Part shown: one piece after another, positions 1,595 through 61,624 of the stretch | How the letters are laid out: every line of letters starts with the position of its first letter | How positions within the stretch are numbered: position 1 is the first letter of the stretch | Origin: Buxus sempervirens | Taxonomy: Eukaryota; Streptophyta; Magnoliopsida; Buxales; Buxaceae | Assembly: GCA_947561395.2 (NCBI GenBank) | Contig: OX387182.1 | Location: 49,159,949 to 49,223,948 of the forward strand | Length of the DNA stretch: 64,000 nucleotides | Reading direction: 5' to 3' | The notes under the pieces: model-generated | Told to the model about the DNA's origin: nothing | Seen by the model: only the letters and a program-made list of their open reading frames with translations | Database searches by the model: none | Translations under genes and position numbers: made by a program

Positions 1595-1830
1595 CTTCCA
1601 AGTCCAACCCATTTCAAAACACACTCGGATCCTTTGTGAAGCGCATCCTCTGTGAAGCGCAATCCAATGGACCAAAATAAGCGAAGGGTATTAGCATAAT
1701 TTTGAACGAAATGCTTAAAAAACCATTAAAATTCTCCTCGGCTTTGTCCTCGGCAATCTCCTTGTCTCGATGAAAACGTGTGAAACATTATATTTAATTT
1801 ACGATCCTCTTCATGTCCGCACCTTACCCG
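1595..1830 (+). repeat. MULE-1 left terminal inverted repeat
   Basis: Read against the reverse complement of 25215-25455 this aligns almost continuously: CTCGGATCC, two TCTGTGAAGCGC-type units, then AATCCAATGGACCAAAATAA, CTCGGC and the ATGTCCGCAC region. Weak similarity (GGGACCACCAC) may continue to about 1970. The left copy has two of the 15-bp TGTGAAGCGCATCC units, the right copy three. Confidence 0.8.
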
Positions 1831-2059
1831 ACATTTTTGGACCTTCTTTGTCTTCGTCATCCTCATCGCATACGAAAAGTACAAGATCATACTCCATTTG
1901 CTTCACAGAGGTTTCCCTTTCTTACAAATGCGCGTGCCCACTTGACAAAAGAAAGGGACCACCACCATCACAAGAACTTCATAAGCGAGGGACCACCACG
2001 ACAGCCACCAGCCTCAGGAAAGACGATTGTAAGCTCTTATTTAATGTTATAATATAATG

Positions 2060-2990
2060 ACCAAATGTATACATAAGGAGCCATGGGTACCAACCGAAAT
2101 AAGCCAAAGGTACTGCTCCAAATAACGATGGGTACCTGCCGAGTTAAGCTTTAGGTACGCCTGAAGAGCTCCCCAAAAAACATTTTCGTAGTCAACAAAT
2201 AAACCTATGGTACCCTCCAAATAAGCATTAGCTACATCCCCATTTAATTCACAGGCACCCCCAAATAAAGCGTAGGTACCCCAGTCAAATAACCCATACA
2301 TACCCCCCACAAATCAGATTAAGGTACCCCACTCTAAGCCCAAGGTACCGCATATAAGCCTAAGGTACCTCCCATATAAACCTAAGGTACCCTATGGTAA
2401 GCCATATGCACTCAACAAAATTATCCTAAGGTACCCTCTAAACCTACGGTACCCACAATATAAGGCTAAGGTACTTCCCGAAATCATGATTCTGCGATTT
2501 GTCCTGAGACCTAATCGCAACGAAATAGAGACAATGTTTTACTGCTTATAGTTAATCGCAAATCCGCGATTAGTCGTTTGATTAATCGCGGCACCTAATC
2601 ATCAGGTCACGATTAATCCTGTACTTAATTGTGATGAAAATCTTGTGAAGTAAGGCTTTGATTCCACTCCCTTCCCCAATTAATTCATAATTGGTGGGTT
2701 ACCCAAGGCTTATGGGGCCGGTACCTAAGGCTCACTTGTTTGTACCTAAGGCATTTTTGGGGTGTACCTAGAACATTTTTTGGGATGGCATATTTGGGGA
2801 TACCCAAGGCTTATTTGTGGGGTACGAAAACCTTATTTTGTTGGGGGTACCTAAGGCTTAATTGGGTGTTGGTAAGCCAATTTCTAGGTGTAGGTAAACC
2901 AATTTTGGGGGCCTATTTGTGGGTACCCAATTCTTATTTGTGGGGTAAAAAATGCATATTTGTGGGGTACGTAAGGCGTATTTCAATTTA
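2060..2990. repeat. KpnI-dyad module 1 (GATTAATC-type core)
   Basis: From about 2075 to 2480 the plus strand is a degenerate minisatellite of GGTACC sites every 20-30 bp joined by CCCATATAAGCCTAA-like spacers (C-rich). A core at 2490-2650 holds repeated CTAATCGC, GATTAATCGCG and GATTAGTCG motifs in both orientations. From about 2690 to 2975 the array returns with opposite polarity (GGGGTACCTAAGGCTTATTT). The block is a degenerate palindrome. It lies just upstream of the Ulp1-like gene at 3075. Confidence 0.7.
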
Positions 2991-3074
2991 CATTTTGATT
3001 TTATAGATTGCACATGTAAATAGTCACATTGCAAAGTTTTTTTTTTATCAATTTGTGTATTTATTTGTAGATAA

Positions 3075-6298: not shown

Positions 6299-6629
6299 GG
6301 GGAGAGTTCGATGTATTAATATTTTTATATTATACATGCGTCAAACTAAAATTTTAATTTGGGGAATCTGTATGTATTTATTTGAGAACAAGGATGTTCC
6401 TGTAATGAATGCTGTAGCTGAATCAAGCATTCACTTAGATTTTACTTTTATGGCATGTTTAGTTTTTTATAATGTTTCACGATCAGATTTTTGTAAAGTA
6501 TTGTGTACATAGGACATTGTATCCATTAAATAAAAGCTTGGTTATTTTGATTGCTTAAGTTCTGCCACAGATTTGTCAAACTCATTGTTCGTAAATTACG
6601 CAAAATTTTAAAACAAGTTACTATACATT
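6299..6629. other. 3' flank of Ulp1-like copy 1
   Basis: AT-rich non-coding sequence. AATAAA at 6529-6534 could be the poly(A) signal of the gene ending at 6298. Nothing else is seen. Confidence 0.4.
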
Positions 6630-7270
6630 AGGTACTCCCCGCAAAACAAAGTGAAGGTACAGTTCGTGTGAAGGCTAAGGTAACCCCCTAATCAGCACAA
6701 TGTACCACCCCCACCCCATATAAGCTTAGGTGTCACCTAGTAAGAGTTGAGTACACCCCAAAATAAGCCCAAGGCCCCCACGAAATAAGCCTAATTTACA
6801 TCAGCAAATAAGCCAAAGTACCCCCCCCCCCCAATAAAAACATTGAGGTACCGAAAAGTATGATGCGAAATAATAGAAGGGTACCCCTAAGTAATACCCA
6901 GGTACCCCCAAATTAATATTAAGGTAACCCATAAGTAAGCCTAAGGTACCCCTAAGTAGGAATTGATAATGAACGAAACGCGCGGACATTAATCATTAAC
7001 GCGCGCACGTTGCAGCTCTAAAGTGCACAGTACGCGCGAGTGTTACCAAGAAACATTCGCGCGTTGAAGTGCTCCCACTATTTTGTACGTGGGGATACCT
7101 TCGGGTTTCTTGTGGGGTACCTTAAATTTACCTTTGGGGTACCTAGGTGTTACTTGGAGGTACTTTCCTCTTAATTTGGAGAATTTTTTGTGGATAAATT
7201 AAGGCTTGTGTGGGGGGTACCCTGGACTGATTTGGGGGATACGAGGCATGTTTGGAAGGGTATCTCAAGA
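6630..7270. repeat. KpnI-dyad module 2 (GC-rich core)
   Basis: C-rich GGTACC-like array at about 6640-6960 (spacers such as CCCCTAAGTA), a core at about 6970-7075 with AACGCGCGGAC, ACGCGCGCACGTT and TTCGCGCGTTGAAG, then a G-rich array of reverse polarity at 7085-7260. Same plan as module 1 but with a CGCG-type core. Confidence 0.65.
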
Positions 7271-7688: not shown

Positions 7689-9285
7689 TCAAATGTACTC
7701 CACATCACTTGGAGGAATATGCTCTCTAATGACACCTTGAGAAGCTGCATCGACAACTGTCCTCTGTTCTCCCTTGTCCCTATTCAGCCTTTGAAGCTCC
7801 TGATTTTCCAATTCAAAGTGCTTCATGGCCCGGCTGTAGTCTTGTTGCATCTCCAAATATATCTCATTCAGCCTGGTCTGCTTCTCATGCATTGCTTTTA
7901 GTGTCATCAGCATTCCATACTATTGTCCTCACCCAATTCAACTTGGTGTCAATTTGTGCAAACTTTGGCCGAATCAGTTCTCGTACGTCCTTTTTCATAG
8001 AGTAGGTGTCTCCTTCTATGTTATTAAGAAGATGTTCCATCTTAGCAACATCGCGATCAGTTTCATGCTTGTGTGCAAGCTGACCATCATACAGTTGTTT
8101 TATTTACTGCTTCATCGTCTCTTGGTTCTCAAGAAGTAGCTTGTTTTGATTCATTAACTCACATTGCATGCCCATAATCTGTGAAAGGATTGATGCAAGT
8201 CCACAAGGCAATTGGGAACAAGTTGTTTGTTCTATAGGTGCAGCAGCAGGAGCAGGCGCCGATGAGGATGGAATATCAGGTTCCAAAGGTTGGTCATGTG
8301 TAGCAGACTCCGGGAGAGGAAGATCATGCTCATGTCCTGTAGAAACATTGGGGGGAGGATCTTCACCAACAGGGGGAGGAGATGGAGGAGCAGGATCATG
8401 GACCCCTGGAACAGGGGGAGGGGGTGGAGGAGGAGGATGAATCTTGTTGTATTGCCCCTTGGACTTATTATATGATGCAGTACTGATAGGAGGATGGGGA
8501 GCAAGTAACTCATACTCTGGGAAGTCAATTTAATGCATCTTGACTATCTTTGCCATGGCACACCCGAGAGTAAGTCCACACCTATGTTTGGTATCGAGAA
8601 AAGAGTCAAGAATAGACGAAATCATGATGGTGGCAACATCAATTGAATGCCTCTTGACCAATGCATAAAGCAAGAGTGCTCTCCTAGGAGGCACAGTTGA
8701 TCTGTGACTCACCGGCGCAATGTTAGAGCTTTGGATTTTGTATATGAATGAGGTGTCAAATGTAAAATCGGAGGAATCCAGAGCTTTGCCCTCATAGTCC
8801 CCCTCCCTCCCAGTGGTCAGTAAGCAAGCAGCTACTTCATTGAGCAAATATGGTAAGGGAGCATCAACATACGGGAATTCAAGATTTTCAACTCTCGGAA
8901 TACCTAGGGCCCCAGCGATGGTATCAGAATCTACATGGATGGGCTGCCTTCTGAGAGAGATATCGAAGGATGCGGGACCATCTGCGATGTTGTGGATGTT
9001 TGAATAGAATTCATATACTAGGTGTTAGGATGGGAGCAGGAAGTTGGTGAAGAGGTTATCCCATCCTCTCCCAGTAAATGCTCCATGAATAGACTTGAGG
9101 AAGTCATCTAGAATAACCCCTCTTTCAAGCAAGATTTGTTTGTGGCTGATATTAGTCTCATACATCTTCTTGGCTTTCCGATTGATGAAGATTGAATTAT
9201 CAAATGAATCAGTCCTGGGTTTCTTATTGGCTTTCTTGGAGGATGTCCTAGGTTTAGAAGATGAGGCTTTGGTCTTAGGGGCCAT
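7689..9285 (-). pseudogene. TP32 copy 1: plant transposon protein (Transposase_32-like) gene
   Basis: Reading right to left, the protein starts at 9285 with a basic Ser/Lys tail (MAPKTKASSSKPRTSSKK), then RKAKKMYETN..LLERGVILD and the patterns HLVYEFYSNIHN and DSDTIAGALGIPRVENLEFP, which match the plant 'putative transposon protein' family. A proline-rich segment (about 8345-8450) and a coiled coil (about 7690-8200, rich in E, Q, K, L) follow. One frame explains nearly the whole gene; it is broken, with about four interruptions. Molecular function is unknown for the family. It lies between the Ulp1-like gene and the transposase of MULE-1. The family name is from memory of motif shape and was not checked by a search. 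Confidence 0.68.
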
Positions 9286-9954
9286 CGAAGAGTTTAGAAG
9301 AAAAGAAGAAGAAAAATAAATATGCACAAAAAAACACATAGCAATTAATAATGTTAGACACAGAAAAGATGAGTGCTACCGAATGCAAATAATATAGAAT
9401 GTGAATAATATGAATAATTCTGTGGAAAAAAACCCACTCCCTATATACATAAAAAAAAACCCCAACACTTGAGAAAAAAGTGCAGGCGTTATTCACGCGT
9501 TAGGAAGATAATAATAGGGATTTGTACTCGTGAAAGGCTTATAGGAAAAGTGAATAGTAACTTGATTTCAACCGATAATAGAAACCATTTCGACCAAGAT
9601 AAAGCCAAATGTACCTCTTCAAGACATTAGAATAAACACATAGATAGGAAGCCCTAAATGAACAAATTAATACCCTAATTGTAACATATAAAATAAAAGC
9701 AATAATGTTCGTAAAGCATCAGTCATACCTTCGAACCAGAAATAACAGATTTGGAACTCTTCCCAAAGAGAATGAAGTGGTACCCACCCTGAGAAGACTT
9801 TATCGAAATGAAGATGAAGCGCTTCGGATGGCTTTGATTCGCATGAACGAAATAACGCGCCAGTCCTGTTTCTTTGTAAATATAGGCAAACGCCCGGACG
9901 CACGTGCCCATAATGTGTGCGCGTTGATATAAAATATGTGTACAACATAGGGAA
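9286..9954. other. Upstream region of TP32 copy 1
   Basis: Non-coding and A/T-rich near the gene. A TATATAGG-type box on the minus strand near 9441-9450 is a candidate promoter for TP32 copy 1. Isolated CACGCG motifs occur near 9495. No other gene is supported. Confidence 0.35.
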
Positions 9955-10145
9955 TTTTTTAAAGGGTACCTTCGGTTTATGTTTGGAGTACCTCAGGCAA
10001 AATGTGGAGATACCTCCTACAAAAAGTGGGGGTACCCAAGACCAAAGCGAACGTTCGGGAGTTCACGAGAATGTGCGTGCGTTTGTATTAAATATGTGTA
10101 GTACCTAGGGCCTTTTTTAAAGGATCCCTTCGGTTTTTTAAAGAG
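9955..10145. repeat. KpnI-dyad module 3 (fragment)
   Basis: Short block with GGGTACCTTCGG, GGAGTACC, GGGGTACCC and GCGAACGTTCG motifs, polarity mostly G-rich. It looks like a partial or decayed module leading into the alternating array at 10150. Confidence 0.5.
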
Positions 10146-10149
10146 TACC

Positions 10150-10490
10150 ATTGGTTTATGTTGTGTACACATGTATGTACACATGTGTGTACATGTGTAC
10201 ACATGTGTATATGTGTACACATGTACATGTATATATGTGTACACATGTACCCATGTGGGTACATGTGTACACAGGTACATGTGTGTACACATATACATGT
10301 ATATATGTGTACAAATGTGCACATGTACATGTACATATGTGTACATGTGTACACATGTGTGTACATGTTGTACGTGTACATGTACACGTACAACAACATA
10401 TACTTGTGTACATGTACATGTACACACGCACACACATGTATACCTGCGTATACATGTGTGTACTTGTGTACACATGTATGTACATGTACA
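10150..10490. repeat. Alternating pyrimidine-purine array 1 (TGTACACATG-like)
   Basis: About 340 bp made almost only of TGTACA, CATG, GTGTAC and TATATG steps, so pyrimidine and purine alternate base by base with few breaks. Such DNA is self-complementary at every scale and is of the class that can form Z-DNA or cruciforms. The open frames it creates on both strands (Cys/Tyr/Val/His/Met-rich) are artefacts. Confidence 0.85.
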
Positions 10491-10499
10491 CACGCATAT

Positions 10500-10845
10500 A
10501 TTAAGGTAGGCAACAAGTACCCCCAAATAAAACTAAGGTACCCCAGAAAATAATACAAAGGTACCCCACTGGTAAGGCGAAGGTACCCCGAAGAAGGAAA
10601 CATGAACAAACGTCAACGCGCGGACGTTGATCTCCAATGCGCGAACATTTCAGCTAAAGAAGACAACTAACGCGCGCGCTTTTAAAAGGACCGTTCGCGC
10701 ATTCAAGTATGTTAATAATTTTTTCCTGGGATACCTTCAGTATAAGGGGTGTACCTTCATCTTCCATTGTAGGGTACCTCCGTTTTACAGGGGGTACCTT
10801 TACCATTTTCTGGTGCACTTTTTTTGGGTGTTCCTTAATCTTCCA
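10500..10845. repeat. KpnI-dyad module 4
   Basis: C-rich GGTACC array (10515-10595), CGCG-type core (10610-10710), G-rich GGTACC array (10725-10800). Left arm of palindrome A. Confidence 0.7.
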
Positions 10846-11098
10846 TGTGTGTGTGTGTATATATATACACGCACACATATATGAATATACACACACACAT
10901 ATATATGTATATATACACACACATATATTTATATATTTATATATACCCACACACACATATACGTATATATACACACACACATATATGTATATCACACACA
11001 CATATACACACACACATATATGTATATACACACATATATGTATATATACACATATATATACATGGATACATAGTATGTGTATGTACACACACACACAC
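10846..11098. repeat. (TATACACACA)n simple-sequence tract
   Basis: Alternating T/C and A/G: TATATACACACACATATATG units on one side and their complement on the other. It forms the loop of palindrome A and is itself alternating pyrimidine-purine. Confidence 0.85.
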
Positions 11099-11448
11099 AA
11101 ATGGAAGATTAAGGAACACCCAAAAAAAAATTGCACCAAAAAATGGTAAAGGTACCCCCTATAAAACGGAGGTACCCCATAATGGAAGATGAAGGTACAC
11201 TCCCTTATACCGAAGGTACCCCAGGAAAAATTCTTAACATACTTCAACGCGCGAACGGTCCTTTTAAAAACGCGCGCATCAGTGGTCTTCTTTAGCTGAT
11301 ACGTTCGCGCGTTGGAGATCAACGTCTGCGCGTTGACATTAGTTCGTGTTTCCTTCTTCGAGGTACTTTCGCCTTACCTATGGGGTACCTTTGTATTATT
11401 TTTTGGAGTACCTTAGTTTTATTTGGGGGTACCTATTGCCTACCTTAA
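11099..11448. repeat. KpnI-dyad module 5
   Basis: Reverse complement of module 4: C-rich array (11130-11225), core with AACGCGCGAACGGTCC, GCGCGCATC and TTCGCGCGTTGGAG (11235-11335), G-rich array (11350-11440). Right arm of palindrome A. Confidence 0.7.
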
Positions 11449-12184
11449 TATATGCGTGTGTACATGTACATACATGTGTACACATATATACAAGTTCATG
11501 TGTACACAAGTACACACATGTACACAAGTATATGTTGTTGTACGTGTACATGTACATATATGTGTACACATGTACACACGTGTACATATGTACACTTATG
11601 TACATGTACATGTGTACACACATGTACATGTGTGCACACATGTACATGTGTGCACATATACACATGTGTACATGTGTACGCATATATACATGTACATGTG
11701 TACACATATACACATGTGTACACAGATGTACATGTACATATGTACACATGTACACACATGTGTACACATATATACATGTACATGTGTACACACATGTACA
11801 TCTGTGCACATATACACATGTGTACATGTGAACACATATATACATGTACATGTGTACACAGATGTACATGTACACACATGTGTACACATATATACATGTA
11901 CATGTGTACACATATACACATGTGTACATGTGTACACAGATGTACATGTACATGTGTACACATATATACATGTACATGTGTACACATGTACACACATATT
12001 ATACACATGTGTGCATGTGTTCACATATACAAATGTACATACATGTGTCCACAAGTACAAACATGTATACGCAGGTATAGATGTGTGTGCGTGTGTACAT
12101 GTACATGTACACACGTATATGTTGTTGTAGGTGTACATGTACATACATGTGTACAAATTTGTACATGTCTGCATATATATACAC
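11449..12184. repeat. Alternating pyrimidine-purine array 2
   Basis: About 735 bp of TGTACATG, TGTACACATG and CATATATACATG units, the longest such tract in the window. The longest frames reach nearly 300 codons but consist of HVYTYTHVC-type repeats on both strands, as expected from a repeat with no stops. Confidence 0.85.
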
Positions 12185-12189
12185 ATGTA

Positions 12190-12545
12190 CGCTACAGACA
12201 TGGAATATTAAGGTACACCCAAAAAAAAATGCCCAAAAATATGGTAAAGGTAACCCATGTAAAACGGAGGTACCCCACAATGGAAGATGAAGGTACACCC
12301 CCATATACCGAAGGTACCTTAGGAAAAAATTATTAACATACTTGAACCCGCGAACGGTCCTTTTAAAAGCACGTGCGTCAATTGTCTTCTTTAGCTGAAA
12401 CGTTCGCGCGTCGGAGATCAACGTCCGTGCGTTGAGGTTTGTTCGTGTTTCCTTCTTCGGGGTACCTTCGCCTTACCAGTGGGGTACCTTTGTATTATTT
12501 TCTGGGGTACCTTAGTTTTATTTGGGGGTACCTGTTGCCTACTTT
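12190..12545. repeat. KpnI-dyad module 6
   Basis: Direct copy of module 5 with some divergence: AAGGTACACCC start, core with GCGAACGGTCC and GTTCGCGCGTCGG, and G-rich tail GGGGTACCTTAG. It is followed, like module 5, by an alternating array. Confidence 0.7.
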
Positions 12546-13082
12546 AATATATGCATGTGTACATGTACATGTTCACACGTAACTGTTGTTGTACGTGTAC
12601 TTTTACAACACGTGTACATCTACATGTACACAAATATGTGTACACATGTACATGTGTACACATATATACATGCATATGTGTACACACATACATGTATGCA
12701 AGGTTTACAATTTCGGTTTTTGGACCCCCAGCGATGCGTTTCGTCAGAGGAAATCGCTGGGGGCGCATCGTTGAGGACTCACCGAAATTTCGACGATTTG
12801 TCACCGGCACGGAGTGGCGTGCCGAGCGAAACGGAACGAAACGGGCGAAACAAAAAAAATTATTTTTTATTGACGAAACGGGGCGGCGTGCCGCCGAAAT
12901 TTCCCCAAAATCCAGAAAAATCAATTTTTTGCCCAGTTTTCGCCAATGGGCGACACGCCCACCGGCACCGAAACTATAAACCTTGCATGTATGTATACAT
13001 GTGTATGTAAATGTACACATACTTGTGCATATGTAAAGGTTTACGTACACATGTTAGTGCACATGTACATGTGTACACGTGT
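12546..13082. repeat. Alternating array 3, split by a small element
   Basis: TGTACATG-type array at 12550-12697 resumes at 12988-13082. The sequence between (12698-12986) is unlike it and is annotated separately as an inserted element. Confidence 0.75.
12698..12986. mobile_element. Small non-autonomous DNA element (MITE-like), about 290 bp
   Basis: The ends form a terminal inverted repeat of about 20 bp: GCAAGGTTTACAATTTCGGT at the left and, inverted, GCAAGGTTTATAGTTTCGGT at the right. The interior is GC-rich with repeated GAAACGG and GCGGCGTGCCG motifs, unlike its host array. It has no coding capacity. TGCA flanks both ends and could be a target duplication, but the repetitive target makes this uncertain. 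The superfamily is not recognised. Confidence 0.65.
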
Positions 13083-13084
13083 AA

Positions 13085-13585
13085 ATGGCTCAAGTACCCC
13101 AAGAAATTAGACCTAGGGCACCAACCAATTATGCCTAAGGTACATCAGCACATAATTCAAAAGTAACCCCCAATGATGCCTTACGGTAGCCACAATTATT
13201 AAGCCAAGTAATGTATGGGTGCCCCAAATAAAATGTAGGTACCCCAAAAATAATATTAAGCTACCCTATATGTGAGGCGAAGATACCCAAAGAAGGAATT
13301 ACTAAGTAACGAAAACGCGCGAACGTTTTGGTCCAACACGCGAACGTTTAAGTTATAACAGAAATTCAACGCGTGAGCGTTTAAAAGAACGTTCACGCGT
13401 TGAAGTTCTTTACTCAGAACATTTAGTGAGGTACCTTTGGTATAATGGGGTGTACCGCAATCTTCCTTGGGGAATACCTGAATTTTACAGGGGGTACCCA
13501 TATTTGATTTTGTGACTTTTTTTTTTGGGACACCTAAAGGCTTGCTTACAGGATGGTACCCTGCCTTATATATGCATATATGTAT
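13085..13585. repeat. KpnI-dyad module 7
   Basis: C-rich array (13090-13290), core with AACGCGCGAACGTTTTGG, ACGCGAACGTTTAAG and AACGTTCACGCGTTGAAG (13310-13420), and G-rich array (13430-13560). Left arm of palindrome B. Confidence 0.7.
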
Positions 13586-13589
13586 TACA

Positions 13590-13908
13590 TAACCCATAAG
13601 ATGTACATACAACTACATACACGTGCATACATGTACATGTACATGTGTGCATGTGTACACATGTGTGCGTGTGCATGAACATGTGTACATGAACCTTTAC
13701 ATATGCACATGTACGAGTACATGTGCATACACATGTATACTTGCGTATACATGTGTGTACTTGTGTTCACATGTATGTACATTTGTATATGTGTAGACAT
13801 GTACATGTGTGTACACATGTACACATTTGTGTACTTGTGTACACAAGTATGTAATGTACACATACAACAACATATACGTGTGTACTTGTACACGTTCACA
13901 TGTACATG
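13590..13908. repeat. Alternating array 4
   Basis: TGTACATG/TGTGTACACATG-type array, near-perfect reverse complement of array 5 (14700-14980). Confidence 0.8.
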
Positions 13909-13909
13909 A

Positions 13910-14393
13910 ATAAAAGAACGTTCGCGCGTTGAAGTTCTTTCAGCTATAAAAGAAAATCACGCACGAACGTTTAAGCTATAATATATATATATATATATAT
14001 GTATGTATATTTAAATGTACAAATATATATGTTTATATATGTACATTTATACGAAATTTATTAAATTTCTGTATAATTTTATAAATATATAAGAAATTTA
14101 TAAATTACATATAATTTTATAAAGTGTATTATAAATTTATAATAAATTTCTATATAACTTTATAAGAAATTTTAAATATAAATTTCTTATATAATTTATA
14201 GATAATAGATTTTCTTATAAGAAATTTCTTATACATTTCATATATATATATATATATGTATGTATAAGAAATGTATAAACTTTCTTAAACATTTCTTATA
14301 TATATATATATATATATGTATATAACAATGGATATAGAAATTTCTATATATAAACGTATAAGAAATTTTCATATATATTTAAGAAAATATAGG

Positions 14394-14439
<46 letters not shown>

Positions 14440-15030: not shown

Positions 15031-15059
15031 TGGGTTATGTAACACATATATGCATATAT

Positions 15060-30102: not shown

Positions 30103-30114
30103 CACTACAAAAAT

Positions 30115-39376: not shown

Positions 39377-39424
39377 AGGTAATTTTTAAACAGGTTCGGA
39401 AAACATAAAAACTAACCGAACTTT

Positions 39425-40005: not shown

Positions 40006-40027
40006 GAAAAGCAGGTATTTTGGAGTG

Positions 40028-43555: not shown

Positions 43556-43564
43556 AGAAATATT

Positions 43565-48827: not shown

Positions 48828-49040
48828 GCCCGTATTTGGAGTACGGGCGTGCTTTGCCCGTACTTCAAGTACGGGTGTGCCTCGCCCGTAATTCAAATAC
48901 GGGCGAAAAACGCACATTTGCAAATCTCGCGAATCAGCCGTACGGGACGCGTGTCCCGCCGTACGGTGACGCGTGTTTTCTTCCGGAATCTTGCCCGTAT
49001 TTCAAATACGGGCATGCCCTGCCCGTAAATCAAATACGGT
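48828..49040. repeat. Hairpin array in solo LTR 3
   Basis: Five variants of a palindrome such as GCCCGTATTTCAAATACGGG within about 210 bp, upstream (on the minus strand) of the LTR TATA box. Same position and design, but different sequence, as the hairpin array in solo LTR 1. Confidence 0.78.
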
Positions 49041-49104
49041 CCAGCACGTTTTTAAAATGTTTGGATTTCAAACCTTTATTCAATTTGGCTTTTTGCAAGA
49101 TTCT

Positions 49105-51874
49105 TGTAAGACCCCAGTTTTGAGTAGAAAAAAAATAATAAATAATAAAATAATAAAATGAAATAATAATAATAGAATAAAAATAAACAAATAATAACAG
49201 TAGATAAAATAAAAGTATATGCACATATGGATGTATGTACAGGTTAAATCAACTTTATTATTGCTAGAAATTTGTGGTCATTAGGGTTAAAGAAAATGAG
49301 GTGGAAATATTTATACGTAGGTCATATTCTGACCGGAAATAAATAAAAAATGGGTCAATGGTTAAAATCCGGGAAAACCCTACAATAAGGAGGGGTAGAA
49401 AGGGGATTCCCAGGGTAAATGGTGAATTAGGTTAAACCCTCGCGGTGTATAAATAGGTAACTGATATAAATTTTCGGGGTTTTGGGGGAATGTTGTTACT
49501 CTGAAATTAGGGCGGCTACTGTTGCGATTAGGGTTTCGCTGGGAAGAGATGAGAACCGCAAGAGTTGCTAGGAGTTTATTGGAGTCGGATTTCTGCGGGT
49601 TATCTCTCTCGCGAGCAAAGGAATTGTTCGGCTACCATTTCATCTTCGCGCGCACCCGGAAATCGCGATCGGCCGAATGGGGAAGAAGCTTTTGTTTCTC
49701 GGATTAAGCGTATACTTGTGAGTAGCACTGTTTTATAACTGGGTTTTGTGTTTTGGGTTTTCTCGAGCTTATTCGGATGCATGTTTTGAATATTTAGTGA
49801 TAGTATGATGTTTTCTGTTTTTCTGGTTTTCGGAAAGTTGCATGAACAGAGTCTCTGGATTGAAGTTTTAATTGAAAATGAAAGTGTTTAGATTAATTTC
49901 AAATATGGTTGGGAAGTCTTCTGGGAGTATTAGGAGTGTATTGGAGCAATTACAGACCTAAACCAACCGGCCAGACTTGTAGATCTTGGAATAACAGAGA
50001 AACAAAAATCACAGGGGGTATCCGCCCACCTCGCGCTCACCGGCGTTCACCTCGGAGGTAGGCGCCCTGTTAAAAATGACCTACCGCCGATCTCGCGCCC
50101 ACCTCGTGCTCATCTCGCGCGAAGTAGAAAACAAGGCGCCGATCTCGCGCCCACCTCACGCCCATCTCACGCTCACCTAGCGTCGGGTGAGCGGCAGGTC
50201 GCTTTTGCCCATTTTCTTCACCGCCGACCGGCACTCACCTCGCGCCCACCTCGATAGGTGAGCGGCAGACCTATTTTGCTTACCGAAATGGAATTTCTGA
50301 TTTGACCAAGAGTATTTGCACTTCTTAGGGGTTAAACCACTTCACTATTCACTTGGTTAGGAACCTGGGAAACCATTTTGCCTATGAAATTAATAGAGGA
50401 AAATTTTGTGAACATCTTATGAGTTTCAAGTTGGGTTTAGGTTACTTATGAGTATTGTGCCGGACACCGAACTAGTAAGAGTTACCAGTTACTTTTCCTT
50501 GTTCTATACACTGCTTTGATTGAGAAGTTCTTGTATTTCGGGTTTCACTTGTTGGAAACTTTATACGTATTGAATGGTTTTCTTTGGTATGAATGGATTT
50601 AGTTTTACTTTCACATGACTTGTGTTATGGAAATGAGAAAGTACTGAATGTACTTGGGGTACTGCGTGGTCCAGAGGGACAGGTGCTGAATTGTGATGAG
50701 TAATTACATGATGTAGAAATGAATGGTTTGTTTTGATATTGAAATCGAGATTATACGATGTTTACTGTTTTGGTCTAGCTTGTCCTGGATCCAGAGTCTA
50801 AGCTTAGTAATGTGATGTTATTGTTGGTTGTTGGAATTGCATGGCCTTGTGTGTTGCCACGATCGGTGTAGAGCAGCCAGAAACCCTGAGTAGGCCTGGT
50901 TGTCAATGCAGAAACCCGGGGAGTAGGCCTGCATTGGATGACGAAACCCTGAGTAGGCCGTCATTTCAGAGTATCCGAAACCCTGAGTAGGCCGGAACTG
51001 TGTACATGGAGGTGTGGAGTGTCTACTTGGCATGTTTAATTTATCAATTAAACGATAGTCATGACATTGACCAATGTTGGTACTTGATTTGTTTTGACGT
51101 GATATGTTTTATTCGCTGGTTTGTTGGTATTTATGGTTCATGGAATATTGTTTACCGATTATTGGGTATTGTACCTTCCGCCGGTGTAGAGCAGCCAGGA
51201 ACCCTGAGTTGGTCTGGTTGTCAATGCAGAAACCCGGGGAGTAGGCCTGCATTGGATGACGCAGTCATTTCAATATCCGAAACCCTGAGTAGGCCGGATA
51301 TACATTTGGAGGCGTGGGCATGGTTATGAGAAGACTTTGTGTTATATGACATTGGTGTATCTGGAATTACATCTTGAGATACGAAATTTTGGTTATTCGC
51401 TATGTTGTTGTCAGTTAATCTTTATTTTATCGCATTCTTCGGGATTGGAAACAGATTGTTATTGTTTGACTTACCTGATGGTTTTCCCGCACTGATATGA
51501 ATTGGATTATTGAAGTTTAGTCGGCTTATTCGGAATATGCGTATTATCGTCATTGTACATGGTTATAATCGTGGCATGTTTTAGAACTGAAATAAATGTA
51601 TTTGTGCATGCATGTGCTGCTCACTGGGATATTCGTATCTCATTCCGTATTGTTTTGTTTTGTTTTCAGCTGCTCCTGGAGAGGACGATACTTGCGGGTA
51701 GTTACTTGGTCATGTGAGTTTATTTTCGTTTGGGATTATTTTAGCGCACTCTGTTATATAGTTTTTGTTGTATTCATGTTTTTCCTTCACTCTGATATTG
51801 CGATCCTGAGTTTTATAATAACCTCTGGAGACGAGTTACGGGTTTTTCATGTGACTCGGATCCGGGGCGTTACA
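49105..51874 (+). mobile_element. Solo LTR 4 (Ty3-like, Del/Tekay-type), nested in solo LTR 3
   Basis: A 2.77-kb unit from TGTAAGACCCC to GGGGCGTTACA with exact target duplications ATTCT (49100-49104, 51875-51879). TATAAATA at 49448-49455. A GC-rich stretch of CACCTCGCGC-type repeats follows at 50025-50270. CCTGAGTAGGCC repeats lie near 50880-51000 and are duplicated at 51185-51295. No coding region. It is the most recent insertion in this stack. Confidence 0.85.
50025..50270 (+). repeat. GC-rich short repeats in solo LTR 4
   Basis: CACCTCGCGCTCACC, GATCTCGCGCCCACC and similar units repeated with small changes, about 500 bp downstream of the LTR TATA box. Confidence 0.65.
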
Positions 51875-52376
51875 ATTCTTATTCGATTTTTCCGATTATT
51901 TTATTAAAAAGCGAGATTCTCTTTATTAAAATATTATTAAACATATTTATCTTATTTATTTTATTGGTTTATTCCATTTTGCTGCCTTTTTGGCCACATG
52001 TGCAGTTTTTCTGAAACTTCAACTGCTCATAATTTCTTCATCCGGTGTCCGATTTCAGCAAACTTAGTGTCGTTGGAACCGGTTCGGAACCACCTGTCCA
52101 CTGGGGTCAAATTTGGCAGCTGAATTGGGGTCGAGCAAAAAGTCAACTTTTTGCTCCCCAAAAGTTTGACCAACTCATATCTTTCTCATCTGGACTCCGA
52201 TTCCATCAAATTCAGTTGCGTTGGAATCGTGTCAAAACGCTCTTTTTAATGAGATGAAGTTTGATGGCCAAATTTACTTGAATCAAAAAGTCAATTTTTG
52301 ACCCTCTCAGGGTTTGACTAAAAGTTTGACTTTTCATTTTTTGCCATTTTAGGGGTGCAAAAATCAGGTGCTAACA

Positions 52377-52422
52377 CCAAGCATACGTGGACTTATAACC
52401 AAGCATGGATAGACTTAACTTA
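52377..52422. repeat. 22-bp minisatellite, segment 3 (end of array)
   Basis: Two more degenerate units (CCAAGCATACGTGGACTTAT, CCAAGCATGGATAGACTT) after the LTR stack, showing that the array was once continuous from 43565. Confidence 0.75.
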
Positions 52423-53089
52423 TATTACAAAACAACATCATTTAGAAGGCCCATGTTTGCTTATGTCCCAAAATTTTATAGCCTAAAATTGGCTTTAGGA
52501 AAAAAACCAACTCCTCTACGTCAAATTAAGGCCTAGACAATCTTGGTCTGAAAGATGCTTGCAACTAACCTTATAGCCTAAAATTAAGTACAAGTATAGC
52601 AATGTTAATGGGAAAATACAAAAGCCATATATTACGAAAGGTGGGTTAGAAATACAACCACATTGCATGTGGGATTATTCTCATACACGTGGACTTGTAA
52701 ATAATATAAAATGGACAAAAAAAATTATCGGTCTTCCAATGGAGTTCCAAGACACTCTCCTTCGATTATACAACAAGATTTGAGAACTAAAGAACCAATT
52801 GGAATCCTTGTGCTTTAAACTTGCCATTACACTTCGATTTTCAAGATGGCCTTCTGCTTTTTCACCTTGTTATCAAGCTAGGAATGCCGGAGTAGTCAAT
52901 TGTACCTATAAACAATGCAAAATAATAAACAAGTCATTATAATGTTATTAGTTTTAGAGAATCATTTTATTGAAGATGATGATTAGTACGTGCATAAAAA
53001 AATGGCCTATTAGGATATATGTTCTTATAAAGAAATGGACTAAACAAGATAGGCTTAGATCTTACATCTTCATCTTCTTTCCCTAATCC
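52423..53089. other. 3' flank of Ulp1-like copy 2
   Basis: AT-rich, no supported gene. It may contain the terminal exon and poly(A) region of the minus-strand Ulp1-like gene. Confidence 0.35.
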
Positions 53090-55619
53090 GTGGCTGACCA
53101 TCTACAAGTTATTCATCATCTATATTGGTCTCCATATCATTGGTGTTTGCTACATTAGACAGAACGATGTCCCGCACTTGGTTTGAAGGGTGCATAACCA
53201 AATCAACAAGAAACTTATCCCTAAAGTGTGCCATATGACTCTGAATTCATAGAAGCTGTACTTGTGTGTTACTAGCAAAGTAGTTGCTTACTATAATTAT
53301 AAAAAATCATTTAAGTTATATACTCAACTAATCAAATTGTGCACACAAGTTGGTGCCATCCCACACCTTCATAAATTTCATCATAAAGACACTACAATCA
53401 TACCTAACGGTATATAATCACATAAATGTAAAAAGCTAACATAGGTAATTTTCGAAACAAACCTAATGTCTTACCCATTGCTTTGATGTGGGACGTTAAC
53501 AAGACAAAAATCCCATTGTGAAATTGGAAAGTCATCACCATCTCCAAATGAACGTAAGATGTTTTCCAAAATCTTGGTCTACAAGTGACGAAGTGAGTGT
53601 CAATAGCATTAACGCTGTAAATTTTATGAGAAAATATCATTAATATGAAATTTACCTGTTTTGCAATTAAAGATTGATGGCCCGCACGACGTTTCCCATC
53701 ATATGAGTCTTAACACCTCCACTCTACGCTCTGCTAAGTTTAGAACTAAAAGAAACCAATGATTGCGGAGATTCATGGGAACAAAAATCTACATACAAGC
53801 AAGACAACCTTATAAGGAAAACCCCATTATAGACTCTGATAAAGTAAGGAAATAAGCATAAAAAATATGAAACAAAGAAGTGAAGGTGGCACAATCCATT
53901 GCATCCCAAGAAACTTATTAGATTGCATTTAAGCACGGAGTAGCCTAGTTGCTGTGGATCGAAGTACCAGCTTAATTCTTTGGATAAACCACGAGCCGTA
54001 TTCATTATCCATTCCTACATAATATATGGAAGGAAATTTTATTCATTAGTGTGGCCTTGAAAAACAACAATTCGATATATGCTAATTACTACTAATGCTG
54101 TCACATAAAATACTTATGCAAACATATGTCGAGCAATAATGCCTTGTGACATTGCAGCTACTCGATAATTGTTGTCTCTTTATAAGACAAGTTTCGAAAG
54201 CATTGATAACCTATAGAAATATACCCAATGTGTGACAATGGCAAATTAAACAACCAATTTATTATTCACAAGATAGGCTTCACATATCATATTATTAACA
54301 TGTTTGTTGTCAAACAAACATGGCAACTCAGATGCCGACGCATGAATGGAATCGAACTTAAATATAATCTCTCTGAAAAAAAAAGTGGAGGAATTATTCG
54401 CTACGAATTAAAAGATATAAATAACATTTACAAGTTAGTTTAAGAATATTATCTTACTCAGAATGTTGGATTTAGATAATGTATTGTACGAGTTGGCATC
54501 CTTCTATACCCAATTGAGAAACATATGGAGTGCGAACACGTTTCGCACGCTACTTGACACGGGTCCCCCTTCTCGATTTGTTTACCTCAGTCCCAGTACC
54601 TTCCTGAATGTTAGTGAATTTAGTGGCTCTTGTAGTCTCCTCATCCAATTGCATTTGATCTTCCTTATCTGCAATATTTGATGATCCAGGAGAATCCGTA
54701 TGATCAACACTCTCAGGGGTGCCATGATAGGAGGGTGAAATCCTTGCTCAAGTTATCGGGCACATCGAGCATGGAAGAATATATAGAATCATGTGGCACA
54801 TGGATATCAGACGGGCAAACAGTTTCCGTTGACTTCACATGATTACTGTAGCGCTCCGAAACCGAGTCTGCCCATATGGGGCACTGACCAGTCCCCGAGC
54901 CCTACCTATAGGCCCCAAAAAAACCTAATTGATACAATCAAGGCAATTACATGGTAATCATTAGAGTGCAAATAAGCATAAAAAGCATGGAATAAAAATT
55001 TCTATCTAACAATAGCCACCTATATAATAATCTTCAAGATGTGATACTTGTGTATAACAAAAGGGATAACGTAAATGCTCACAATATCTCTCCAATATGC
55101 ACCATCACATACTAAAGTCATAATCCAAAAGAAAGTTATTACATTCCCATTCACAATTCCTAAAAACTAAAACCAGCAACACATGGAGAACCCTACTATG
55201 GGCGGTAGTAGTTCTTAGGCCTATGCTCAGGCTCTCCCTTTGGCTCTGCCCCAATATTGTGCTCACATAGAGGATTTGAAAATAAATCCAGTAAAACAAA
55301 ACACGCATGAGACTTAAAGTCCCAGTAAGCAGCAAACATGCATGAATGGAAGCAGTTTATGCAATTCATATAACATCATGATAACATTCACTGATATTAA
55401 ATATAAAACTCAAGAATAAAAGCAGTTTATGCAATTCTTAAAATATCAAGATAATATTCTCAGTTATAAGGTAGAATCTCAAGTCAAGCATCTAAATTGG
55501 ATAACACATAAAATTAGTTCAATAGACCCAATCACTTAACACAAGCATATCTTAGTAGGACTCATAATGTAAAACAAATCATTCGTATCATTTACTAGAA
55601 CCAATGCCTCAATGCACAA

Positions 55620-55870
55620 ACCAAGTGGAATTCCCCATCCACTGCCATTCAACCAAGGCTAAATGGAATTCCCCATCCATTTCCATTCAAACAATACCAA
55701 GTGGAATTCCCCATCCACTGCCATTCAACCAAGGTTAAGTGGAATTCCCCATCCATTGCCATTCAAACAATACCAAGTGGAATTCCCCATCCACTGCCAT
55801 TCAACCAAGGCCAAGTGAGATTACACATTCATTGCCAAGTGGAACTACTCATCCATTACTAAGTGAGATT
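55620..55870. repeat. Tandem repeat of about 38 bp in solo LTR 5
   Basis: About six tandem CCAAGTGGAATTCCCCATCC plus ACTGCCATTCAA units; a further degenerate set lies at 56055-56140. The inverse-oriented solo LTR 2 has only three or four of these units (45245-45640). Confidence 0.8.
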
Positions 55871-56749
55871 ACTCATTCACTGCCAATCAAACCCTAGGCC
55901 AGGTGCCTAGTCAAATCACATAAGAGAGTTCATCATACATTTACCAAATCAAATCAATATTCACAAAGTGTAAGAAATAAACAATAAGCACTTCACATCC
56001 AAAGCCAAATCAAAGTAAAATACATATACCATAAAGTCCACAAAACATAAACCAGGGCCGAGTGGAATTCCCCATCCATTGCCATTCAACTAAGGCCAAA
56101 TGAGATTATACATTCACTGCCAATCAAACCAAGGCTAAGCACCTTATCAAATTACATAAGATATCTCAACCTTATTTTAATAAATCCATACCAAGCAAAC
56201 CAATAGCCATAAATTCCACAAATTACATATTCGATGAATGGGATAGTCTTAGGATTCCCAATAAGGTCATCGTGCCAAAAATCAAAGGATTTCGGGGCAA
56301 AAAGTTTTTGATCTTGAGAAGTATTCTAAGTCTAGTTAAAAACGTTGACTTTTGGGTATATAATTTTTTTAGACAAATCTACTAGGGGTTTTGGGCTCAA
56401 ATCTAGATCGTAGTCTAATGAAGAGTTGACAAATTTTCTGTAATTTTATGAGCTTCTGAATCCTCCATTTGGGTATCAAACTCAAAAAGTGGTTTTTGGT
56501 GAAAAACGGGCAAAACTGGAATTTTAGGCATGAACTGGAAAGTTGACTTTTTATTTGTGAGGAATTAGGTTTTGGGAGTATTTTTAGTGGTTCCAAATGG
56601 GGGGTAAAACCTTATTTACATGTAAAGACTTAAGTAAATAGAGACATAAAATACACTGGACATTTAGGTTGTTTGGGTGCTGTGTAGAAGGTTTAGGTTG
56701 TTTGGGGGAACAGAGAATGGAACAAAGGGTGAAGGATTGGAAAATCATG

Positions 56750-58610
56750 GCTCATGATTAGCTCCATGATTAATCGCCCCTGGGCAATTACCTTCGCGAT
56801 TAGATCCGCGATTAATTGCCGAGCTAATCTTGATTCACGGTTAATCACCGGGACTAATCATGTCCCTAATAGAGACTATTTTTGGGTGTTCTGGCTCACG
56901 ATTAATCACCAAATTCTAGGATTAATTACTAGCTCGGGTTCTTACACATTTTTGGCTATTTTCCAACACCAAATCCATACAAACCATTTCTAACCCTTCC
57001 AACACCAAATGAGATGATCATAGAACATTCCAATATGCCCAAAACACCTTCCAAAACAGTAATCCATCTCTAATCCAAATGAATACAAATCTAAATACAT
57101 GAAACCTCATTCAATACATCAAACTCGAACCCAAAACTAAAATGTGATCAATATAGGTTGGAAATCCATGGCAAATCAATAGAAAACTAAACAAGATAGT
57201 TACATAACTAAAACCCTACAAATTTTAGAAGCAAAAACCAACATGCAAGTGATTTTCCAATTTAACCAAACCCTAGGAGAGAGAAATACGAAAATATAGT
57301 AAATTCATTTTAGTTGGAAGGGTTTGATACTTACATGCTTAATGATGAAGCACAACTTCTCTTCAATTTTTCTCCTTCTTCTTCTTTTTCACCAAGCTTC
57401 CAAGCCCTTTACACTCTCTTTCTCCCTTGTTCTATACGTAAAACACGAGAATGGGGTGTTCCAAAACACCCAAACATTAAGCTACGGCATCCTTCTATAT
57501 GCCTTTCTTTTGTTTATCAAAGTTTCCCCTCAACAAGTCTTTTATTCCATTAAACCCTTGAGAGTACCTAAGGGTTATCAAGAGAGTACCTTAGTGTTAT
57601 GAGGGGGTACCTTGGTGTTATTTGAGGGGATACCTTGGTGTTTCAAGGGGGTTTACCTTAGTTATTATAAGGGGTATACTTTAGGTATGCTTGGGGAGTG
57701 TACCTTAGTAATATAAAAGGGGTATCTTAATTATAGAAGGGGTGTACTTTAGTTATATAAGGGGCTACCTTTAGGTAATACAAGGGATGTACCCTAGGTA
57801 ATATAAATGGTATACCTTAGGTATACAAGAGGTGTACCTTAGTTATATTAAGGGGATACCTTAGGTATATTAGGGGGGTGTGCTTTAGTTATATAAGGAG
57901 ATGTACCTTAGTTATATAAGGGGGGTATTTTAATTATACAATAGGGTACCTTAATTATATAAGAGGTGTACCTTAGGTAAAGCAAGGGGGTACCTTAGTT
58001 ATATTAAGGGTGTACCTTATTTATATTGGGGGTGTACCTTAGTTATATTAAGGGGGTGTGCTTAAGTTATATAAGGGGTGTACCTTAGGCATAATTGGGG
58101 GATACCTTATTTATATTAAGGGGGTACCTTAGATATACAAGGGGATACTTTAAGTATATTTGGGAAGGTATCTTAGATATACAAGGGGGATACTTTAGAT
58201 AACACTTGGAGGTACTTTAGGTAATACATGGGGGTACTTTAGGTAATACATAGGGGTACTTTAGGTATACGAGGGGGTAATTTAAGTATATTTGGGAAGG
58301 TACCTTAGGTATACAAGGGGAATACTTTAGGTAATACATGGGGTTCCTTTAGGTAATACATAAGGGTACTTTAGGTATAGTTGAGGGATACTTTAGGTGA
58401 TACATGGAAGTACTTTAGGTATAGTTGAGGGATACTTTAGATAATACATGGGTGTACTTTAGGTAATTCTTGAGTGATACTTTGGGTACACATGGGTGGT
58501 AATTTAGGTACACTTGAAATGTACTTTAGGTATTCTTAGGAAATACTTTAAGTATACTTGGGAGTTATACATTTGGTTTACTTTGGGGGCTATGCTCTAG
58601 GTGTACTTGG
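56750..58610. repeat. GATTAATC core and GTACC array inside solo LTR 5
   Basis: At 56755-56945 there are eight or more GATTAATC/GATTAGC/CTAATC words. At 57555-58610 about 40 units of GGGGGTACCTTAGTTATATA type follow. Both parts recall modules 1 and 11 of MULE-1. In the related solo LTR 2 the array is only about 270 bp and the GATTAATC block is absent. Confidence 0.7.
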
Positions 58611-61047
58611 CCCAAATTGGTGTTAACGAGGGTTCAAGAATGATCTAAAGTGTTGCAATTTGAATCTGGGCACAAAAAAATAATTCTGCAAATTTTGTAC
58701 TGGACGTGCGAACATTAAGGTTGGACGTTTAGGCGTTAAACCTTTATCAAATGGTTTCTACAGGATTTAGCTCAACGCGTGATTCAAGGTCGCACATCAA
58801 GGCAAATTTTCACATTTAACTTCAATTTTTCAAAATTTGATTTCTAATTCACTAGAACTAATTGAAGGATACCTTAGCCAATTAAAATTTAAACATAGCC
58901 TTAGTTAAGCTTACTTTAATAGAACCTTCAACATACTTTAATTTATTTTCCCCAATTCTCAGACATAATCCACGTCCACCTCATCTTCATATCATAGGTG
59001 CTTAATTAGTCTAATAATCTCACTTTAAGTAATTAAACTTAATAATTAAGCTGATAAAGGTTGGGATTTTACATTTACCATCTCGCTATACATTTCCATG
59101 ATCTTTGTGAGATGACCTTGAATAACCTGGGATACACAACACACAATCGTAAACTAAGCTGATTTGTTCTTAATAAGAAAACTTGAAAAAGGTAGGAGAA
59201 AAAAACCAATCTTATAGGATCTGGATCTCCATGGAATTGGCTTAGATCAATGACATCTAGATCACGTGCTTCGCCAGATGCTTCATCTTCCACATGGTAC
59301 TCGGCACGGTGCTCAAGCACCTACAGTATTTAATGTTTATATTACCGAGTACATAGAAATGCTACATTATTTGAAAATTTGACAAGGAAATCTACAATAA
59401 TGAGTTCAACTCAAATATATATACATATTTATACCTTCCCATTTCCATAACCACTGAGTGTCATTTCATCCTTCTCCCTTTTGGTAATCAACGTATCCAT
59501 CCACGCTGCCATACATGGAGTAGTAGGAGGCGTCGCTTCACCAACAATAACTTGATTGTAATACAAAAACTAAGCAACAAAGAACTGCCATTAGAACACT
59601 CCGTTCAATGGATATAAGTTATAGTATGGCCAATGCATGTATTAAATACTATACATACCTATAAGAATAACAAGCAGCCATTGACACCTTTTCGTTTGCC
59701 CTTTTGAAAATCAGCTACGTGACACATTAATGTATCCAATAGATACTTCCTCCAATTATATCGTCTTATCTTCTCTACATCGACCAACAAAGGGAGATAA
59801 CAAAGGGAGATAGGATGCATTCACATCAATCTTTGTAGATGGATTTACTAAGGTGGACAAAGAATACAGGACAAAAGAACAGATCCACTCGTGATTGTTT
59901 TGTGGGCTCTTTAAGCTATTCTCAACATTTTCAATTGGGATGCTTCCATTTTGTACCCCATAAAAACTATACAACTCTATTATATTGAGGATTTCTGATT
60001 TAGATGTATCAACCTTTTTCCCCTTTATGGGTAACCCAATGATCATCTCTACATTGTGTGTGTCAAGAAAAAAATATTCTGTACCCCAACTTTGATACAT
60101 CTTTCCCTAGTATCTATCCTTTGAACAATCCAATGACACAGCCACCGATGAAGCATTTTCGCGTGTAATTTCAGCAGGCAGTCAAAACCACAATCTCTAA
60201 GGTATGCCTCTTGAGAAGCAGTGAAGTCAATGGCCTCCATGAACACAATGAACCATCTAGGTGAATAGTGTGTTTGTATTAGAGCCTATCAAAAACAAAG
60301 GTAGAACAAAAGAATATGTCAGTCTCAAATAATTACCCACAATAATTCCAATTTTAGATAATAAATTCCATGAACCTACTGTTTTTTGCTTGGCCCTTGT
60401 CATGGGACAGCCTTATTGTATTCATCCACTCATGCTGTGAAGCTTTCTTAAATTCTTCTCTCTCGACCTCATTCATGGACTTCCATGTTACACTAGCATC
60501 CGTGAATAATCGAAACACAATAAATAAATGGATAAATTCATTTGAATAGGATTGACAAAATGCAAATGAACAAAATAAAGGATGTTCCTTAACTGTTACC
60601 AATGATAATGCCTACCCGTTGCTTCATGGGGATTTTTTCACCTTTGCTATAACTCTTTATTCTTTCATTTACATAATGCTCCCTAAAAAAACAAAAGAAA
60701 AACCATGACCAATTATATACTAAGGATTACAACGATGCAAAAGGAATTACAATAACCGTCATATTGACAACTATGCCCAAACTTATAGAAAGTAAAAAAG
60801 AAATTTAGTGGATTGCTTCCATGCTTGCTTGTAGAACAAAACAAATAAACAAGTGAAGGAAACTTTACCTGAAGCGTAGCCAACTATTGCGCGAGCATTT
60901 TCTTCTTGTTGATGATGGTCCACCAATTTCCATAGTAGTCAAACTTGTCCTGCACATTAACAGAGGAAATTTCACAATTCCGATTTCTAGATTCAAGCAA
61001 AAATTCTCATTACAGCAAACAACACCACATAACAGAGGCATTTTCAA

Positions 61048-61451
61048 ATAAAGAGAAAACTCCCATTACAAAAATTTGTATTTAAAACATTTTAGGAAAG
61101 GGTTTACATGTAGATGGAACATAAAAATCTAGCATGGAAGATAGAAAATTAGGTTTCCTAATAGCAATAATCTAGAGAATCTGAGAAGGGAGTGGATTTT
61201 AATTGAAATATCGTCGTTTTAATTCATCAACTAAATAACTGTTGATAAAAAGATTCAAATGTACCAGTGTGTCGAATTTCTCGGAGAACTTCTCACTCTT
61301 GCGCCCTTCGTTCGTTTTGACCAATAGTGTAACGGCTTGCAATCGTTAGGTTGGGGAGGAAGGAACTAAGCGTTGAAGCTTGAAGGCTTTCGTTTTTTGA
61401 AAATCATCTGGTTCTCGCACCCTTCATTCAAACAAAGGAAATGTGTTGCAA
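61048..61451. other. Upstream region of Ulp1-like copy 2
   Basis: Between the first recognised exon and the right terminal repeat. Probably the promoter and leader on the minus strand. No clear TATA box or gene. Confidence 0.35.
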
Positions 61452-61624
61452 TCGTCGGGTTGGGAGAAATGGGGAGAAAGCGAGCAACCGGTTGGTCGAA
61501 TGGATTTGGGGTCAAACAAATTAGTTCGTCGAATGGATTTGTGAATTAAAAGAGGAGAAAGTCTCATGCGTCTCACGAGACTTTCTCCCCTCCACATGTC
61601 ACTTGGATATTAACGTTGTAAAAA
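61452..61624 (-). repeat. MULE-2 right terminal inverted repeat
   Basis: Inverse of 25461-25633. Shares GGTTGGTCGAATGGATTTGG, the AGTCTCATG-CGTCT-CACGAGACT hairpin (one mismatch) and GTCACTTGGATATTAACG. A weaker match may run about 35 bp further out. Confidence 0.85.

Follow-up and report, generated by a model that had tools for sequence, protein, structure and literature searches.

How do two very large Mutator-like elements (MULEs), whose terminal inverted repeats (TIRs) appear unrelated, come to carry the same genes in the same arrangement? The question is raised by a stretch of 64,000 nucleotides from Buxus sempervirens (contig OX387182.1, positions 49,159,949 to 49,223,948), here called the window, in which a first-pass annotation had described two such elements, A and B. 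Our evidence base is this single window together with Pfam, the PDB and the open-access literature; from its genes the window can be judged to be plant nuclear DNA, since, besides transposases of the FAR1 and tnp2 kinds, it contains a carboxylesterase gene of plant type. To judge from their related transposases, shared 22-bp arrays and similar gene order, A and B appear to be diverged relatives. We consider it on balance probable that both are decayed FAR1-type (Jittery-like), Ulp1-carrying (Kaonashi-like) MULEs, with an array-based means of escaping silencing and with TP32 as a third element gene. Of the two features that A and B have in common, the arrays are a more informative find than the trio of genes.

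Results

Gene content, layout, arrays and decay can all be read directly in the window. The arrangement described by the first-pass annotation, a FAR1/MURA transposase at one end, a convergent multi-exon Ulp1-like gene at the other and TP32-family genes in between, is borne out by Pfam matches in both elements. Starting at the transposase end, A and B alike present first the transposase, next a TP32 gene that faces it in convergent orientation and, at the far end, the Ulp1-like (C48) gene, similar to SUMO proteases, in the opposite orientation to the transposase; A carries an extra gene, TP32_A1, convergent with its C48 gene. All seven element genes appear interrupted by stops or frame changes, unless some of these reflect unrecognised introns.

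Both transposases exceed the Pfam cut-offs for the FAR1 DNA-binding domain and for the MULE domain. Transposase A lies on the reverse strand at 21586-23762 (PF03101 87.6 bits, PF10551 83.9 bits), and transposase B on the forward strand from 26887 to about 29640, its 3' limit being approximate (PF10551 87.2 bits, PF03101 39.8 bits); each is split over frames. A SWIM domain scores 12.7 bits in A, under the cut-off of 19.6, and the Pfam scan gave no SWIM or CCHC zinc-finger match in B. When the two proteins are aligned, their cores are 57% identical over 111 amino acids (aa), their FAR1 parts 35% over 118 aa and their C-terminal parts 35% over 105 aa. The scan omitted on both strands, among others, the stretches 1.5-3.07, 14.4-15.5, 20.6-21.4 and 23.95-26.7 kb, and covered several further stretches on one strand only; it also returned rows under cut-off for Mom, PLN_propep and Transposase_24.

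The C48 gene of A runs on the forward strand from 3075 to about 6300, and joins a DUF1985/PMD-like N-terminus to a Peptidase_C48 C-terminus. That of B, also multi-exon and with a long intron, runs on the reverse strand from 60240 to about 52850. Exon limits were placed by eye and exons joined by hand in both genes, and the joined products match the C48 domain at 46.8 bits (A) and 44.5 bits (B), compared with a cut-off of 20.7 bits; single frames score 18.1 and 16.7 bits, both under that cut-off. The C48 parts of A and B are 26% identical over 135 aa, and their N-terminal regions also align, with 24% identity of B to A. Exon 1 of the gene in A has one in-frame stop, at 3528, and the gene in B has frame changes in its N-terminal part and near the catalytic region. 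In the N-terminus of A's gene PMD scores 19.3 bits, under its cut-off, and this N-terminal domain found no PDB match up to E 10.

The TP32 genes are those with similarity to Transposase_32 (PF20167, gathering cut-off 45 bits). TP32_A1, at about 7885-9285 on the reverse strand, consists of a Lys/Ser-rich N-terminus, the domain (68.5 bits), a Pro-rich linker and a tail; three in-frame stops precede the last one (9027, 8532, 8106), and the score is 70.6 bits if stops are read as Q. TP32_B, on the reverse strand at about 40950-41930, where the outer limits are approximate, has its domain at 41264-41764 (68.2 bits, or 73.6 bits with stops read as Q), a single in-frame stop within it at 41674, and an orientation convergent with transposase B. 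The weaker match is TP32_A2, at about 18822-20107 on the forward strand, convergent with transposase A and split over two frames, whose 34.1 bits fall below the cut-off; its open reading frame (ORF) at 18942-19466 gave no Pfam match on its own. The placing of TP32-family genes between the outer genes thus holds firmly for TP32_A1 and TP32_B and less so for TP32_A2. Identity is 29% over 185 aa between TP32_A1 and TP32_B and 40% over 45 aa between TP32_A2 and TP32_B. Comparing a TP32 profile with one for the N-terminal domain of A's C48 gene gave a probability of 3% (E 0.014, 68 columns), a hint at most. Five p300 rows found on comparing TP32 with the PDB, at E 1 or worse, were taken as chance, and TP32 queries against two non-plant collections returned 1 stretch that fitted the pattern in viral_contigs and 31 stretches in genome_contigs, with 0 confirmed in either.

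What the two elements share outside their genes is a noncoding 22-bp unit, about GGGGTACCTWAGG followed by an AT-rich tail. The window has 75 GGTACC sites where 8.1 are expected from base composition. Allowing at most one mismatch, the core GGKGTACCTWAG matches 59 times (40 in A, 19 in B and 0 in the remaining 4 kb), compared with a mean of 0.6 in five simulated sequences; with 0 mismatches there are 11 matches versus 0 simulated, and with two, 138 versus 13. The 59 matches form ten separate clusters, and none falls inside the gene spans, which are approximate and take up 14,819 of 60,044 nt. Among same-strand spacings of up to 120, 27 of 35 are within 2 of a multiple of 22, for which the chance expectation is 5 in 22. 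The unit is clearest at 2.1-3.0 kb, where it is about GGGGTACCTAAGGCTTATTTGG; that of B is about GGGTGTACCTTAGGTATA... and, counted from GTACC onward, 15 of 19 positions are alike between the consensus for the left array of A and that for either of the two arrays of B.

On the evidence of motif counts and unit consensus, the arrays of A lie upstream of the C48 gene (2080-2990), where the C48 gene and TP32_A1 converge at their 3' ends (6600-7240), where TP32_A2 and the transposase do so (20300-20820) and upstream of the transposase (24200-24950), that is, near both ends of the element and between convergent 3' ends. Repeat comparison adds a set of repeated, alternately inverted array-bearing modules, rich in TG/CA simple repeats, at 9950-15600; several alternately inverted copies, with long TG/CA and TA simple repeats, can be seen at 10160-15600. 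In B, units of the GGTACC type are arrayed within the C48-gene intron (57564-58626; 17 core matches, all on one strand) and in an inverted copy of part of that intron, where a short array lies at 44349-44518. That copy lies within 43570-47208 together with a second type of 22-bp array (TTGTAACC, 20 matches versus 3.35 expected), which is of a TGTAACC type unrelated in sequence to the GGTACC type. The sites of the second array are at 43570-43838 and 46443-47208, with the unit TGTAACCAAGCATGAGTGGACT and a period equal to that of the GGTACC arrays. Short arrays with units of about 24-41 bp occur at 55616-55886, where the repeat reads CCAAGTGGAATTCCCCATCC..., and at 45240-45349.

The termini of A and B differ. 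The left TIR of A spans 1605-1825 on the forward strand, with its outermost bases set by eye, and the inner part of the right TIR spans 25216-25448 on the reverse strand, its outer limit also set by eye; blastn aligns 1626-1825 with 25216-25411 at 76% identity. The TIRs of B, at 25461-25633 (forward) and 61452-61624 (reverse), are 92% identical. No blastn match was found between the TIR pair of A and that of B (E 1e-6; 50-60 nt), in agreement with the earlier statement that the terminal repeats are unrelated. The further suggestion that A and B belong to different families fits these TIRs; it sits poorly with transposase cores that are 57% identical and with a noncoding unit common to both.

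How are the two elements placed with respect to one another? The 10 bp CTTCCAAGTC at 1595-1604 adjoin the left end of A, and an identical 10 bp lie past the right end of B, at 61649-61658, as a probable target-site duplication of A. Beside the second copy, 61637-61648 (reverse) are probably the outermost bases of A's right terminus, severed by B, since, read in the inverted sense, 9 of their first 10 bases agree with the left terminus of A. In random pairs of 90x80 windows a 10-bp match arose in 0.0116 of cases, three pairs having been tried, and the inverted match in 0.00019, both statistics being computed once the match was already known. The outer repeat brackets both elements and the inverted terminus agrees in 9 of 10 bases, which is most simply read as B probably lying nested within the right terminus of A and not next to it. 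With respect to Jittery-type features, TIRs are present in A and B; of the expected 8-11 bp target duplications, the 10-bp outer repeat is a probable one for A, and the search gave none for B. Three other candidate duplications were rejected. Two fall within terminal repeats, namely rows of 8-9 bp at 1611-1612/25432-25433, in the TIR of A, and a 9-bp row at 1622/61600, in the TIRs. The third, also of 9 bp, is at 1570/25446 and stands apart from the left end of A. Each of the two 9-bp rows has one mismatch.

The 36 kb of B are enlarged by a nested CACTA element and by an inverted duplication. The CACTA element occupies 30103-39974 on the forward strand, with the left end CACTACAA... and an uncertain right end, both ends being placed by pattern only, and there is no clear 3-bp target duplication at them. 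Its domains, at 33.4-34.9 kb, are Transposase_21 (239.3 and 46.3 bits, in two frames) and Transpos_assoc (59.2 bits). Within this stretch, a unit of 341 bp is repeated in tandem at 36970-38161 (3.5 copies, 91% matches). The inverted duplicates, 43837-46450 and 54840-59075, are 67-76% alike and take in some of the C48-gene intron together with the array there. We dropped the idea of 43837-59075 as a separate element nested in B, exons of B's own C48 gene lying within it.

Outside the elements, an uninterrupted single-exon carboxylesterase ORF at 460-1464 matches Abhydrolase_3 (172.7 bits), its nearest solved relatives being entries for the strigolactone hydrolase Carboxylesterase 15 (E 1.9e-52). 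The outer 10-bp repeat starts 128 bp past its stop codon.

Discussion

How might such elements have worked before they decayed? We suppose that each element, in its intact ancestral form, coded for one or more TP32 proteins as well as for a FAR1+MULE transposase, whose substrate would be the TIRs, and for a convergently encoded DUF1985/PMD-like protein that ends in a C48 part. What VANC does in VANDAL elements suggests that this last protein probably attached to the 22-bp GGGGTACCTWAGG-type arrays, at promoters as well as in the intron and 3' regions; we infer this because a DUF1985-like/C48 gene and noncoding arrays are combined here much as they are in VANDALs. Such binding would have relieved DNA methylation and left the element genes expressible. 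TP32, governed by the same arrays, would probably have made a third gene of the element, in the position that VANB has in VANDALs. In the same scheme, B would have inserted into A's right terminus, beside the host carboxylesterase gene. Array binding and relief from silencing are what we infer, and so is whatever part the protease domain and TP32 may have played.

Several observations weigh against this scheme. The transposases of A and B are FAR1-type and not VANDAL-type, and both elements have TIRs. The core motif was defined on the same sequence in which it was counted, so that the array counts are descriptive and no test of a prior hypothesis, and most GTAC sites of the 9.95-15.6 kb region belong to TG/CA repeats, the unit consensus being lost there. 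Neither known VANC motif is enriched, that of VANC21 occurring 1 time versus 3.5 expected and that of VANC6 5 times versus 4.55, a result compatible with our reading only because VANC motifs are known to change, and one to be expected should the motif and its protein have changed in step. Joining the C48 exons by hand favours the domain match; the DUF1985 similarity of the N-terminus scores 24.3 bits, under the cut-off of 35.1, and was seen in A only, the corresponding region of B having no Pfam match up to E 10. Predicted structures were poor, with a predicted local distance difference test (pLDDT) value of 35.4 for TP32_A1, from a three-row alignment, and 37.2 for the N-terminal domain of C48 gene A. 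Finally, a search of 8-11 bp repeats found no target duplication of B itself, and the nesting of B in A is on this account supported, not proven.

The place of TP32 is where an alternative is strongest. The TP32 genes might be passengers with no role in the MULE, as debris or captures of Athila-type ORFs or as insertions of separate TP32 elements, an explanation that we hold to be doubtful while giving it real weight. Gene capture is frequent in plant transposable elements, according to the available text of PMC2528002, and the only described context that we found for PF20167 is an extra ORF of a sunflower Athila long terminal repeat (LTR) retrotransposon, where the similarity is partial (PMC11728184, as far as its available text goes). 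TP32_B is moreover nearer in sequence to TP32_A1 than to its positional counterpart TP32_A2, which weakens that positional match. Array-bearing repeats bracket TP32_A1, in inverted orientation (6755-7242 and 15091-15570, 69% by blastn) and in direct orientation (6750-7224 and 13093-13563, 67%, among others), and weaker ones bracket TP32_A2 (15402-15550 and 24330-24479, 68%); those around TP32_A1 may mark the termini of another, nested insertion. However, these repeats consist of the 22-bp unit that also stands beside the other genes, in many copies among which no pair stands out, and no 8-11 bp duplication was found beside the inverted pair 6755/15570; because of this we think it more likely that they are neither LTRs nor the termini of another element. 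The repeat comparison showed no LTR-like pair, and the Pfam-scanned frames, the coverage of which has gaps, yielded no gag domain and neither a reverse transcriptase nor an integrase. TP32_A1 and TP32_A2 are flanked by arrays of the element's own unit, the one left of TP32_A2 being some 3 kb off, and TP32_A2 and TP32_B are both convergent with their transposases. It is plausible that TP32 is a third element gene. Given the kinship of A and B, the presence of TP32 in each is more economically explained by one lineage keeping the gene than by two independent pairings, and of the earlier proposal that the trio defines a transposon type, the trio and its layout are real while the two elements do not count as independent recruitments of TP32. 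The opposite view, in which A and B are independent MULE families that recruited the same three genes separately, agrees with TIRs that lack blastn similarity at the thresholds used and with C48 and TP32 proteins only 26-29% identical between A and B. We think it very unlikely, common descent being the simpler account of the related transposase cores, the similar gene order and the same 22-bp unit.

The arrays, too, can be explained in other ways. FAR1 domains bind DNA, and the arrays might be subterminal repeats bound by the transposase, or enhancers of its gene, and not targets of anti-silencing. Arrays do lie near both TIRs of A, at 2.1-3.0 and 24.2-24.9 kb, and a regular spacing of 22 bp would suit any cooperative DNA-binding protein; but A also has arrays in its central part and others between genes whose 3' ends converge, and those of B are at the C48-gene intron and its inverted copy and not at the TIRs, so that this explanation seems to us somewhat unlikely. 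Alternatively, they may be neutral, satellite-like expansions with no bound protein, in what are otherwise the remains of ordinary Ulp1-carrying MULEs. In favour of this, B has other tandem arrays of unrelated sequence, some with a 22-bp TGTAACC unit and some with a unit near 38 bp, whereas the recurrence of one unit in two diverged elements, in ten separate clusters all outside the gene spans, makes this unlikely.

We return to the reading of A and B as related MULEs with probable array-based anti-silencing. A more far-reaching version of it, which we advance tentatively and as clearly less likely, is that FAR1-type MULEs carry a sequence-specific anti-silencing system of their own, VANDAL-like, in which the DUF1985-like/C48 protein is addressed to GGGGTACCTWAGG arrays and TP32 is a third functional partner and counterpart of VANB, with perhaps a remote kinship to the N-terminal domain of that protein. 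If true, VANC-type anti-silencing, known in detail from Arabidopsis, would extend to FAR1/Jittery-type MULEs; there would be a named DNA motif and a candidate protein, testable in vitro; and PF20167, a plant family of unknown function, would gain its first working context. The observation made in the first-pass annotation was mostly right, and its interpretation plausible in part.

Comparison with known systems

The VANDAL elements are the systems on which our proposal is modelled. The available text of PMC5735166 reports that VANC binds short, often tandemly repeated motifs in the introns of VANC and VANB and upstream of VANA, that it induces loss of methylation across the VANDAL element, and that DUF1985 is one of two VANC domains shown. 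Like VANDAL21/Hiun, with its VANA, VANB and VANC, the elements described here have three genes and short motifs in noncoding tandem arrays; for the DUF1985 of VANC there is a match under the Pfam cut-off, in A only. Unlike VANDAL21, they have a motif unrelated to YAGTATTAY, and anti-silencing, which was shown for VANDAL21, is a proposal for A and B. The words 'ulp1' and 'peptidase' are absent from the available text of the VANDAL21 paper (PMC5735166); a 2026 review, citing Sasaki 2022, states in its available part that VANC carries an Ulp1 domain in some VANDALs, and that these elements act on related copies by way of specific motifs (PMC13317346).

That MULEs may carry Ulp1 genes, as the first-pass annotation noted, is established in the literature. 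In the Kaonashi (KI/KIU) MULEs of Arabidopsis the Ulp1/C48 gene is in reverse orientation to the transposase (PMC2528002, available text), and it is described in the available text of PMC13317346 as one of three coding genes of the element. A and B resemble Kaonashi in having the C48 gene opposite to the transposase, and differ from these non-TIR elements with a mudrA gene in having FAR1-type transposases and TIRs of about 170-210 bp. The available text of PMC2528002 also places Ulp1 downstream of the transposase in some Jittery-like families of melon and grapevine, notes that Ulp1 occurs in MULEs in both orientations, and gives lengths of 11.9 and 14.4 kb for the grapevine Jitvine families. 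In a 2019 survey, the plant Jittery group has one ORF with FAR1 and other groups have PMD or DUF domains, TP32 not being listed in the available text (PMC6446971). Our literature search on Transposase_32/PF20167, limited to open-access work and weak as evidence of novelty, found, among the papers listed, no title or abstract opening on TP32 in MULEs. Jittery-type transposases accompanied by Ulp1 are not new, because they have been reported for melon and grapevine; unlike those MULEs, for which the available text of PMC2528002 mentions neither feature, A and B have TP32 and motif arrays, and it is this addition that would be new.

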